From positions 2,852,001 through 2,916,000 of the forward strand of contig NZ_CP071463.1 of the NCBI RefSeq assembly GCF_017352095.1: a stretch of 64,000 nt of DNA, written 5' to 3'. Below are positions 19,002 to 23,094 of this stretch, piece by piece. The stretch is from Natrinema longum (GTDB taxonomy: Archaea; Halobacteriota; Halobacteria; Halobacteriales; Natrialbaceae). The notes below the pieces were generated by a model. The model had not been told where the DNA came from, did not search any database, and worked only from the letters and a program-made list of their open reading frames with translations. Position 1 is the stretch's first letter, and every line of letters begins with the position of its first letter. The position numbers and the translations under genes were made by a program.

Positions 19002-20555
19002 TTATGCGCCGACCCAGGCGTTCGTCGAGGCGACGGACGTGAACTGGATGTTCTCGTTCTCCTGCATGGTGATCTGCGAGCTGCCGGCACTCTCTCCGTC
19101 TTCGGCGACCGCGACGGAGGTGTGTTGCTCGTTGACGTTCTCCTGGGCGATGAACTGGTGTTGTACGATCGCCGCGCTCGCCGTCTGATCGCCGTCGTTC
19201 GTCTGCGTGGCGTTGCCGGCGTAATCGTACGACATGCCGGGGTTGGAGTCGCCCGCATTGCCGTCGATCGTCGCCGTCGTACTCGAGGTTCGGGTGATGT
19301 CGTCGGAGACGTAGCCCGGACTCGCGTAGACGTTGAGTGCGTCGGCGTAGGCGATCTGAGCGTTGTAGTTTTGCTGGTAGGCCATCTGGACGGCCGTGGC
19401 ATCGCTGCCGTTCTGTGCGATCGCCATGGCGCTGTTTTGCAGGTTGATGTTTTGCTGCTCGACCTCCTGCTCTTGGGCCACGCCGGCGGTCGCCGTCTGC
19501 TCACCCCCGTCGTCGCTTTTCTTGTCGGGTTTGTGCGTGTCGGTGTGCGTCGAGAGGACGTCACTGCTCACGTTACCCGCGGTCGCGATGTTCATCCCGG
19601 CGCTCGAGGCCAGCAGATTCGTGGCGTCGGCACTTCCGAGCTGTTCGTTGAGGTTGCTCTGGTCGGTGAACTGAATCGCCGTGGCGGTGCTGTTCTCGCC
19701 GACCGCGATGGCGACGGCACCGCGCTGTTCGTTGAGGTTCGCCTGCTCGACGTCCTGTTGTTGCGTAACCGTCGCGTCAGCGTCCTGGCCGGTGGACGGA
19801 CCGTGATCACCCGACTTGTCCTTCTTGTGGCCGAACTCGCCGTCGCCGAGGTAGACGTTGGACGCGTTGGCGACCCCCTCCTGGAGGTTCTCGTTGCGCT
19901 GGTAGGACTGCTGGACGGCGGTCGCCTCGCTGTCGTCGACGGCGAGGGCGAAGGCGGTACTCTGGTTGTTGTAGTTGACCTGAGCGACCTCCTGTGACTG
20001 GGTCACGGAAGCGAGGGCCTCCTGGGTGATCGTCTCGTCGTCACCCTTCTTGTCTTTGACCCCCCAGCCGTCGAACTGTTGGTCGCCGCCGTTACCGATG
20101 ATGATGTTGACGTCGCCGACGTCTTCGAACTGTGTTTGTGCGCTCTGCAGGCGACTCTCGGCGTTGGCCGACCCGCGCTGTTCGTTGTCGTTGTACTGGT
20201 TTGCCTCCTGAATGGCGGTTGCATCGCCACCGTCGATCGAGATCGACACCGCCGAGCCTTGCTCGTTGATGTTGACCTGATCGACGTCCTGATACTGGAT
20301 GACTTCGGCCGCGGAGTCGGCTTCGCCCTCCGCGTGCTCGTCGATATAGTCTTCGAGCGACTGCTCACCGAGGTCCGCCCCGAAAACCAGGTACAGCTCC
20401 TCGCCGTCCTCGAGCGCGTGGACCGTTCCGTTCTCGAGGTCGCCGTCGCCCCCCGCAGCGGCCGTCGGCACACCGGCCGCTACCATCGACAAGGCGACCA
20501 TACAGGCGATAAGGAGTGTCGTAGTTCGTGAGCGTCTCGTTGTCTTGTTTCTCAT
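19002..20555 (-). CDS. Secreted Q/N-repeat protein with curlin-like repeats
   Basis: 517 residues. A Sec-type signal peptide ends near residue 35 (hydrophobic core LLIACMVALSMVAAG, then TAAAGG). A short domain follows (GEELYLVFGADLG, about 52-63). Then come five repeats at about 83-138, 183-235, 262-316, 357-411 and 461-515. Each reads roughly V-x-Q-x-Q-x-V-x-Q-x-N-x-N-x-Q, an alternating A-x-A-I/V-A strand, ATAxQ, and a second Q-x-N-x-N-x-Q followed by A-x-A-x-N. The regular Q and N spacing resembles curlin repeats and predicts stacked beta-strands. Spacers are Asp/Lys/Gly-rich and differ in length. The function as an extracellular amyloid or adhesin is inferred. Two smaller proteins with the same motif lie on the other side of a 700-base spacer. 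Confidence 0.75.
   Translation of the reverse strand: MRNKTTRRSRTTTLLIACMVALSMVAAGVPTAAAGGDGDLENGTVHALEDGEELYLVFGADLGEQSLEDYIDEHAEGEADSAAEVIQYQDVDQVNINEQGSAVSISIDGGDATAIQEANQYNDNEQRGSANAESRLQSAQTQFEDVGDVNIIIGNGGDQQFDGWGVKDKKGDDETITQEALASVTQSQEVAQVNYNNQSTAFALAVDDSEATAVQQSYQRNENLQEGVANASNVYLGDGEFGHKKDKSGDHGPSTGQDADATVTQQQDVEQANLNEQRGAVAIAVGENSTATAIQFTDQSNLNEQLGSADATNLLASSAGMNIATAGNVSSDVLSTHTDTHKPDKKSDDGGEQTATAGVAQEQEVEQQNINLQNSAMAIAQNGSDATAVQMAYQQNYNAQIAYADALNVYASPGYVSDDITRTSSTTATIDGNAGDSNPGMSYDYAGNATQTNDGDQTASAAIVQHQFIAQENVNEQHTSVAVAEDGESAGSSQITMQENENIQFTSVASTNAWVGA
19011..20309 (-). repeat. Five degenerate Q/N-rich repeats in the coding sequence
   Basis: The five units of about 53-56 codons are similar at protein level and diverged at DNA level. 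Each is two half-units built on a Q-x-N-x-N-x-Q core. Linkers between units range from roughly 26 to 50 residues. Confidence 0.65.
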
Positions 20556-21257
20556 TGATCGTTTGATTTGTGTCGTGATTGTGATTTCTTGCTAGGTCTG
20601 TGCGTCGCAAACCCTCCTATCCCGATTACAGACTTTGTTATCTGTATATTTCCGCGGCGAAGAAGACTGATACCGAACTGAAGGGGGGCCTTACGCGATC
20701 AGTCTCGAGAGTGGCCCGAAACGCGACCGCCGGCACACTCGCTGAGACCCTCCCGGCACCACAGCAAACCCAGGTCCGATCGAAACCCCGGAAGCATCGT
20801 TTCTGCGGGACCGTCGCGACGCCGAGACTGTCGGAGTATTTGATCGGTAACTCGAGTAGCCGTTACGGAGCGGAAAGTTCGGGTTGGGATCGGCGAGAGA
20901 TCGAGTATACCGCCGGAAAACCCCCTCTCGAGCCGGAAAACACCCCTCCCCAGGGTCGGTACGAGTCCCAACTTCGGTATCTGGTACGGACGCCATACGC
21001 GATCGATAGTCTCGAATTTCGAGTCTGCGCTGAAACGATCGGTCAATTCGAGATAGGTATTGAAACGGTGCGGTCAACCGTTGCTATGGAACGAAACCAT
21101 GCCCCGTCTTCATATGGATCTCCGAAGTGAGGCTTAGTCGGGAGACACGCAGCGAACGGGAGGTTAACGGCGGCTACAGCCGACGAGCGGCAGCTATCCG
21201 TCGCATGCCGGCTCGGTAGCGTTACGTGTCTCTCGAAGCGATACCAAGATTCCAACT
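20556..21257. other. Divergent spacer between Q/N-repeat genes
   Basis: No credible gene is seen in these 700 bases; the open frames on both strands are Arg/Ser/Pro-rich. The left part holds the promoter of the leftward repeat gene and the right part must hold that of the rightward gene. A TTCATATGG motif at 21109-21117 recurs upstream of the third repeat gene. Confidence 0.5.
20641..20656 (-). promoter_or_regulatory. BRE/TATA promoter of the Q/N-repeat gene
   Basis: On the minus strand the sequence reads GCGGAAATATACAG, a purine-rich BRE followed by a TATA box. It predicts transcription from about 20620 and a 5' leader of about 65 nt before the ATG at 20555. Confidence 0.5.
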
Positions 21258-21734
21258 ATGAATGTGACACGGAACACGATCCTGACGCTCGTACTCGTCG
21301 CCAGCCTGCTGATGGTTGGCTTCGCCGGAACGGCAGCAGCAGGTGGTACCGCCGATACGGCCGAGACAGCAGACGTCGACGACGATGACGATGACGATGA
21401 GCAGGTCGCGGCAGCAGCTGTCGTCCAGAACCAAGAGGTCGCTCAGGTTAACGACATCGACCAGAACGCCGACCAGACTGCCGAGCAGGAGGCAACTGGA
21501 CTCGAGGTCGACGTCGAAATCGGAGACGACGACGATGAAACCGGTAATGACGCTACGCCCTCCGGAGACCAGCTCGAAACCCTCAACGACCATGAGGATG
21601 ATGGAGACGGATTCAACCTCGAGATCGGCACCACTGGTGACCAGACGGTAGAGCAGGACATCAGCCAGTCGGCCGAGGCGTCCAACACGAACTCACAGGT
21701 CGGCACTGCGTCCGCTGCCAACTTCGACTTCTAA
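21258..21734 (+). CDS. Small secreted Q/N-motif protein (paralogue 1)
   Basis: 158 residues. The signal peptide is MNVTRNTILTLVLVASLLMV, ending in TAAAGG. An Asp run is followed by one Q/N unit (VVQNQEVAQVNDIDQNADQ, then AEQEATGLEVDVEI). An acidic middle insert lies between this and a C-terminal Q/N unit (GDQTVEQDISQ, ASNTNSQVGTASAAN). The first and last parts align with the next gene and with single units of the 517-residue protein. I infer a minor or nucleating partner of the large repeat protein. A T-rich tract (about 21768-21773) follows the stop. Confidence 0.65.
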   Translation: MNVTRNTILTLVLVASLLMVGFAGTAAAGGTADTAETADVDDDDDDDEQVAAAAVVQNQEVAQVNDIDQNADQTAEQEATGLEVDVEIGDDDDETGNDATPSGDQLETLNDHEDDGDGFNLEIGTTGDQTVEQDISQSAEASNTNSQVGTASAANFDF

Positions 21735-22254
21735 CGACACGACTCGCCGATCGATTCGGGATAGTACTTTTTTATCGAAGCGGGATGGAAACCGGAGCCG
21801 TTCGACCGACCGGTCTCGAATCTCCCGACTCCGAGTCGACTCGCGAGGGGGCCGTCTGTAGCAGTCGGATAGCGATCGATAGCGTGACCCTGATTTCGAT
21901 ACCAGCCGCTAGGGACTCGAGTCGCCATCTGTATCGGTTTCTACTCCCGTCCGACGCACTATGACTGATCCCAAACACTATTCCGCTCTCGAAATACAGG
22001 CGGTGAAGCTATTCTGTAATTTTAGATAATATACGGTCCTGTACAATGTAGGACTCGGATAGCACCGTGAACAGTGATTTGCCTTCATATGGGCTGCTAT
22101 GGTCCGATCTGACCGGGCGAGGCACCACGATGATGTGGGAAGAGACCGAGACGCGGTCGGTACACGGTGTCGTGTGTTGCGACGGCCGGTGTCCTATCGG
22201 AAATCCCGCATGACACGTGTGTGCCCACCCGGACAAACAACGATCTACCAAACT
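21735..22254. other. Intergenic, no gene seen
   Basis: These 520 bases hold a T tract just after the previous stop and an AT-rich stretch (about 22010-22035) with a TATA-like AATATAC. A TTCATATGG motif lies at 22084-22092. No credible coding frame is seen. Confidence 0.45.
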
Positions 22255-23094
22255 ATGAGACGGACACTAACGGTACTGATGACGCTCGCTCTCGTCGGAA
22301 GCATGGCCTTCGTGGGCTTTGCAGGAATGGCTGCTGCAGGTGGCGGCCACCACGATGACAAGGCCGACGACAGCGGCGACGATAGCCTTGCGGCCTCGAG
22401 CGTCAGTCAGTCACAGACCGTATCGCAGACGAACGTGATCGAACAGAACGCCAGCCAGTTCGCCAGTCAGGACGCGACCGGGGTCGACATCGACCTCGAG
22501 GACGTCATGGACGATGGCGATGATGGTACTGATGGCGATGACGGTGAGAACGGTGTCGACGACGGTGAGGATACCCAAACCGGAATCCAGACCGTGACGT
22601 TCATTCGCGAAGAAGGCAATCAACCCTACGCTACGTTCGAATGGGATGGTGATGACGATGAGTTCGATCTAGAATCTAGTATGGGTCAGGGAGATAACAT
22701 CGACCTAACCCCTGGGGAAGCACGTGCCAGTGACGGCAATCCGCTGGACGCTACCTGGACCTTCGACCCACCGGGCGCGAGCGAAGCCCAAACGCCGGTC
22801 CGGGCCCTTGTGACCAATTCTGATGGGACGACGTGTACCTTCGAGTATGGAGACGCCCAACTGGAAGGGAGTGTTGAAGCATGTGAGCCGGACAACGGTG
22901 GCAACGGTGGCAACGGTGACAACGGTGGCGACAACGGCGACAACGGCGACGTCACCGATGGCATCGAAGGATCCGTCGGTAACCAGACCGTCAACCAGCT
23001 AGTCGAGCAGAACGCCGACGCGTCGAACTCGAACACGCAGAGCGCCAGCGCGAACGCCTTCAGTGGCGATCTGGCCGCGATGATCTCCGGCTGA
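22255..23094 (+). CDS. Secreted Q/N-motif protein (paralogue 2) with insert
   Basis: 279 residues from the ATG at 22255. The signal peptide (TVLMTLALVGSMAFVGFAGM, then AAAGGG) resembles that of the preceding gene. The N-terminal unit (SVSQSQTVSQTNVIEQNASQ, then ASQDATGVDIDLE) and the C-terminal unit (GNQTVNQLVEQNADASNSNT) align with the paralogue. Between them is a 130-residue insert with a beta-rich part, two Cys (TTCTFEYGD and EACEPD) and a G-N-G-D repeat run. The upstream frame extension is rejected since it is Arg-rich. Inferred role: accessory or capping member of the same extracellular fibre. Confidence 0.65.
   Translation: MRRTLTVLMTLALVGSMAFVGFAGMAAAGGGHHDDKADDSGDDSLAASSVSQSQTVSQTNVIEQNASQFASQDATGVDIDLEDVMDDGDDGTDGDDGENGVDDGEDTQTGIQTVTFIREEGNQPYATFEWDGDDDEFDLESSMGQGDNIDLTPGEARASDGNPLDATWTFDPPGASEAQTPVRALVTNSDGTTCTFEYGDAQLEGSVEACEPDNGGNGGNGDNGGDNGDNGDVTDGIEGSVGNQTVNQLVEQNADASNSNTQSASANAFSGDLAAMISG

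Follow-up and report, generated by a model that had tools for sequence, protein, structure and literature searches.

Does the pair of small secreted Q/N-rich proteins encoded beside a larger repeat protein in the haloarchaeon Natrinema longum belong with it to one extracellular system, and if so, of what kind? An earlier note on this DNA grouped the three genes by a common motif and, by analogy with curli, proposed that one may encode the major subunit and the others nucleators or caps. Here we follow up that proposal. The window, to which all coordinates without a locus label refer, is a 64,000-nucleotide stretch of contig NZ_CP071463.1 (positions 2,852,001 to 2,916,000).

Five-unit and one-unit Q/N proteins

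The two small genes lie on the plus strand and encode p158 (158 residues, 21258-21734) and p279 (279 residues, 22255-23094; a start at 22099 is also possible, while 22255 is favoured by the signal peptide and the orthologues), each a secreted one-unit protein. Their signal peptides end at GFAGTAAA/GG and GFAGMAAA/GG, respectively. Motif comparison with shuffles delimits an N and a C half-unit in both, separated in p158 (21405-21500 and 21627-21731) by an acidic linker and in p279 (22387-22482 and 22969-23058) by a folded domain. The N-terminal unit reads VVQNQEVAQVN...AEQEATG in p158 and VSQSQTVSQTN...ASQDATG in p279, and the C-terminal unit GDQTVEQ...ASNTN and GNQTVNQ...ASNSN. None of 1000 shuffles reached the score of the N motif (z = 13.6) or the C motif (z = 10.4), and the two proteins retrieve each other in a protein search of the genome with E values of about 1e-13 to 1e-14. 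The genes are therefore true paralogues, with the common signal peptide type, common terminal units and differing middles that the earlier note had read from them. Matches of p158 to NF042931 and Neugrin were rejected, as they fall below cut-off and cover the signal peptide and acidic linker.

The third gene, p517 (19002-20555, minus strand), is divergent from p158 and p279 and encodes the conserved member of the set, a secreted protein of 517 residues. Its signal peptide is followed by a short N-terminal domain with a conserved LYLVFGADL and by five units of ~53 residues with linkers of ~25-50 residues. Repeat anatomy and an AlphaFold model place these units, all on the minus strand, at residues 82-134 (20154-20312), 181-233 (19857-20015), 260-313 (19617-19778), 356-408 (19332-19490) and 460-512 (19020-19178). 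The consensus of the first strand is A-x-[VI]-x-Q-x-Q-x-V-x-Q-x-N-x-N-x-Q-x2-A-x-A-x-A, and that of the second, after the turn, A-T-A-x-Q-x3-Q-x-N-x-N-x-Q-x3-A-x-A. QxNxNxQ is present in both strands, the two copies lying 27-28 residues apart almost everywhere, and occurs ten times in p517 of the window (shuffle mean 0.03, maximum 2). The members of the pairs Q277/Q299, N275/N301, N273/N303 and Q271/Q305 lie at equal distances on either side of turn residue 288 of unit 3, and the two strands of this unit therefore mirror each other. The units keep their Q and N positions invariant, or nearly so, in 42 orthologues with identities as low as 38%, and nearly every orthologue has exactly five units. 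One p517 copy (locus L025, genome G018) carries a single in-frame TGA in a genome that holds a second, more distant copy.

In p158 and p279, the N half resembles strand one of a p517 unit, and the C half resembles strand two. When joined, the halves score z 3-5 in shuffle tests against p517 units 1 and 2, which makes the motif link among the three genes real, as the earlier note had it, yet weaker than that between p158 and p279. Judged from these comparisons, p158 and p279 are single p517-type units that differ at the turn. One-unit proteins of other genera have either the same A-turn-B order (alignment A4) or a permuted order with the second strand first (alignment A5).

The AlphaFold model of p517, built from 42 sequences, predicts two strands in each unit, mostly of 27-31 residues, joined by a turn of 3-4 residues (pLDDT 70-89). 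The linkers are modelled as disordered, ~45% of the protein in all is disordered, and the mean pLDDT is only 56. A pTM of 0.50 over 517 residues despite this disorder suggests that the five units have set positions with respect to each other. In p279 the insert (residues 107-208, 22573-22878, plus strand) is modelled as a domain of ~100 residues with two Cys (pLDDT mostly 83-94), predicted to be an Ig-like β-sandwich; its best structural matches on VIA realignment are all Ig V-set folds, at Z 5 to 6, below the full-trust level of 8. The lectin-like proteins that came first in Foldseek (E 0.016 to 0.04) were discarded, with TM about 0.2 or less and rmsd >11. A p279-type insert is also found in a 236-residue protein of N. 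gelatinilyticum (alignment A3) and, by sequence inspection, in a 343-residue Halomicrococcus protein (locus L164). The Q/N halves of p279 are predicted to be disordered or helical (pLDDT < 50), so homology alone argues for their strand nature.

Distribution, gene neighbourhood and upstream elements

p517 is present in all 29 Natrinema genomes and in 99 of 125 Natrialbaceae genomes, covering 26 of the 29 genera sampled; outside this family it occurs mainly in Haladaptatus and Halomicrococcus, sometimes in several copies. In the phage records searched no p517 homologue was found, leaving a phage origin unsupported. The nearest named relative, Natrinema ejinorense, has 97% identity in p517. Of the two small proteins, p158 occurs in five of 29 Natrinema genomes, always with p279 alongside, and p279 in nine. 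The pair is lineage-specific, but is replaced by other one-unit proteins rather than lost. The idea of a conserved three-gene set thus holds for the family, p517 with small Q/N partners, but p158 and p279 themselves are not its conserved part.

The synteny search across haloarchaeal genomes that the earlier note had proposed finds at least one small secreted Q/N gene divergently upstream of p517 in 38 of 49 named loci, the nearest starting a median of 629 bp away (interquartile 553-665). The filter applied detects no small gene in the remaining 11 loci, several of which have short flanks or belong to one deep branch (L120-L124). Across the 49 loci, 56 small Q/N genes lie upstream of p517 and one elsewhere in the flanks. 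The small-protein profile A5 matches 92 of 99 p517-bearing genomes and none of the 26 that lack p517 (Fisher p 8.5e-21, a statistic that ignores phylogeny). Some matches of small-protein profiles cover the signal peptide only. The 92 matches listed divide into 67 at most 10 kb from p517, 15 at a greater distance but on its contig, several of them at 26-34 kb, and 10 on contigs other than that of p517. The order-wide A4 search matches p517 itself and so does not bear on the independence of the small genes. In most genomes, then, members of the family do not occur independently of each other.

A plasmid of Haladaptatus salinisoli carries p517 with two divergent one-unit genes, all among unrelated genes, and the module is therefore not tied to its chromosomal neighbourhood in Natrinema. 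The chromosome of the same organism holds five tandem one-unit Q/N genes (L155:5023-6979), with no p517 within the stretch examined. In some Natrinema loci (L071:5262-5759, L072:6029-6355 and L077:6723-7418) the divergent small gene encodes a glycine/aspartate-rich secreted GGDGGD protein with no clear Q/N unit, and GGDGGD and Q/N proteins are mixed in loci L093, L094 and L106.

Small genes of different sub-families have in common the upstream arrangement GAAACCGTT-N~7-GGTTCAAGT...CGACYGGGCAACGCGYCACA, with a distance of 46 bp from AAACCGTT to GGGCAACG. The two-box pattern has 38 matches in 125 genomes (reversed control, 0), of which 37 sit 75-152 bp before a small Q/N gene and the last precedes one by 1.2 kb. 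No exact match to the pattern occurs in the window, where p158 and p279 instead carry the version CTTCATATGG, present in four copies in the whole 3.59-Mb genome. On upstream comparison the promoter-like signature is GAAACC ... CTTCATATGG ... GGGAGACACG for p158 (21093-21149, plus strand) and GTGAACAG ... CTTCATATGG ... CCGGGCGAGG for p279 (22067-22125, plus strand). The element CTTCATATG, first spotted by eye, is kept before nine orthologous or related genes. In loci L079-L127, GAAACCGTT ... TTCAAGT/TTCATAT ... GGGCAACGCG precedes small Q/N genes and is almost exclusive to the gene family. GAAACC, TTCAAGT/TTCATAT and GGGCAACG ~30 bp further on may correspond to a BRE, a TATA box and a start site, which they resemble. 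As the signature is common to divergent small genes, these genes look co-regulated with each other. It was not found before p517, which has an element of its own, ACAGATAACAAAGTCTGT (20628-20645, minus strand), 8-mers from which recur upstream of up to 31 of 42 p517 genes, against an expectation of ~0.5. ACAGATAACAAAGTCTGT, an imperfect inverted repeat, lies ~85 bp upstream of p517, is conserved in roughly three out of four orthologues and may be the site of a regulator.

These observations bear on one account of the locus, that its products are secreted acidic Q/N-rich low-complexity proteins, alike in composition and signal peptide, which do not work together. Acidic character is indeed common among haloarchaeal secreted proteins, and the profile matches confined to the signal peptide would fit such an account. 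Half-unit similarity far above that of shuffles of the same composition, the invariant Q/N positions, the co-occurrence and synteny, and the promoter signature common to divergent small genes all argue against it, and we consider it highly improbable.

The proteins might instead form an adhesin or receptor system, in which p517 is a surface platform and the variable small proteins, whose inserts are Ig-like or acidic, attach to partners, surfaces or viruses; their fast divergence would then follow from such binding. The Ig-like insert predicted in p279 is in keeping with this, as are the rates of divergence, since the small genes vary by species (37-64% identity for p279 outside the closest relative) while p517 mostly keeps 76-86% within Natrinema. 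A surface anchor is present in some members: the PGF-CTERM signal (TIGR04126) that marks archaeosortase A substrates scores above cut-off in the p517 orthologues of loci L073 and L112. Anchored orthologues, from one Natrinema clade and Natronorubrum, are a minority; most orthologues have no anchor, and a test of the C-terminal signal found none in p517 of the window. No receptor or ligand is known, and the ladder-like repeats in every member are a better fit to assembly, so that we think an adhesin or receptor role unlikely. The anchored orthologues at L073:8018-9877 and L112:8995-10821 have a C-terminal extension, and adjoining that of L073 is another PGF-CTERM surface protein with a Q/N motif (L073:4275-5333). 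By eye, one p517 orthologue (L078) appears to have a Tat-type signal.

Relation to curli and other extracellular assemblies

Curli are one of the nearest comparisons. Like CsgA and CsgB, the proteins described here are secreted, have tandem Q/N repeats of a predicted strand-turn-strand kind and are paralogous subunits encoded together. The curli repeat is ~23 residues long, in contrast to ~53 in p517 with its two predicted strands of ~30 residues, and the spacing of Q and N is another: the curli pattern Q-x4-N-x5-Q occurs once in p517 and QxxxQxNxNxQ ten times. The curlin repeat (PF07012) was detected neither in p517, p158 and p279, nor in 42 p517 orthologues, nor in the genome at E<=10; an E. 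coli control was positive. For CsgG, the best match in the genome (E 0.79, 9.9 bits) is under the 20.8-bit cut-off. A single-membrane archaeon would need no CsgG, the general secretion pathway being sufficient. Without PF07012 and CsgG, membership of the curli family is ruled out.

A search of solved structures with the p517 profile matches no PDB chain. Foldseek gives only two PDB matches at E<=10 for the p517 model, CsgA (E 0.61) and FapC (E 4.9), neither significant, and VIA gives Z scores of 5.7 for CsgA, 4.8 for an RTX β-roll and 2.8 for FapC, below trust levels; these matches may be used as a lead. Next to the curli fold, a β-solenoid in which strand-arc-strand repeats are stacked, p517 has predicted strand-turn-strand units. 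FapC, a functional amyloid, is like p517 in having linker-separated repeats, but has no established relation to it. With no curlin repeat, CsgG or solved-structure match, the analogy with curli drawn by the earlier note is at most one of form.

Could the locus nonetheless encode a genuine amyloid system operating in the manner of curli, with p517 or a small protein as the fibre subunit and another as nucleator? The five repeats, Q/N ladders, secretion and several paralogues of different size would suit it, as would the two names returned by Foldseek and the staining of Haloferax volcanii biofilms with Congo red and thioflavin T, for which the responsible protein is not established (PMC4180959). 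Set against these are the departure from the curlin kernel in Q/N spacing, the failure to detect PF07012 or CsgG, and linkers of 25-50 residues, long and predicted to be disordered, unlike the tight repeats of curli. On balance we doubt that the locus works in this way.

Archaea do build giant extracellular assemblies from secreted β-arch proteins, as known from the methanogen sheath proteins SH of Methanospirillum and MspA of Methanosaeta (PMC10593813, PMC6242892). SH is set apart by its description, with a cap domain, an amyloid-like two-sheet domain and a linker, and no five Q/N units. A sheath survey of 2024 refers to Halobacteria in connection with Dsb proteins only, and one paper notes a single archaeal protein, not named there, that has curli-like repeats (PMC3521004). 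No description of the p517 family was found in the literature searched, though such absence is no proof. Taken together, the three proteins look like components of an extracellular fibre or matrix, apparently undescribed so far and without sequence relation to bacterial curli.

Putative assembly of the Q/N system

The homology, repeat anatomy, synteny, co-occurrence and common promoter signature observed here, together with the predicted strand pairs of p517, lead us to a model to which we give about an even chance: the locus would encode a secreted modular β-strand system that builds a fibre or matrix outside the cell, in which the small one-unit proteins are co-subunits or decorators. We infer stacking between different chains, the formation of a fibre or matrix and the roles of the members. 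p517 would be exported via its signal peptide, for which the general secretion pathway would be enough, and would fold or assemble as a rod in which five units are stacked, each with two strands of ~30 residues and a tight turn, and with inward ladders of Q, N, V and A. The small proteins would be exported separately, each giving one like unit in A-turn-B order (p158, p279) or the permuted B-turn-A order (other genera). Units may stack via main-chain hydrogen bonds and Q/N/A ladders, whether they belong to one p517 chain or to p517 and a one-unit protein. The small proteins would be added to the stack as co-subunits, as ends or as decorations, with turn inserts such as the predicted Ig-like domain of p279 exposed at the surface. 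Such a system would yield a fibre, sheath or matrix outside the cell, whose decoration varies by species while its scaffold stays constant, and some p517 orthologues would be surface-anchored through PGF-CTERM.

More tentatively, and at well below an even chance, we suggest a dedicated haloarchaeal extracellular polymer system of an origin independent of curli, in which a constant five-rung scaffold takes up species-specific one-rung modules with exchangeable turn cargo, the small modules being co-switched from a private promoter. The p517 family, annotated only as hypothetical, has clear parts and hosts that include the genetically editable Natrinema gari J7-2. It is a widespread candidate for the amyloid staining of haloarchaeal biofilms, the protein behind which is not known. 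If this reading is true, a curli-like scaffold outside the cell would have arisen a second time, here with exchangeable display modules and working at molar salt, which would also make it of use for materials.
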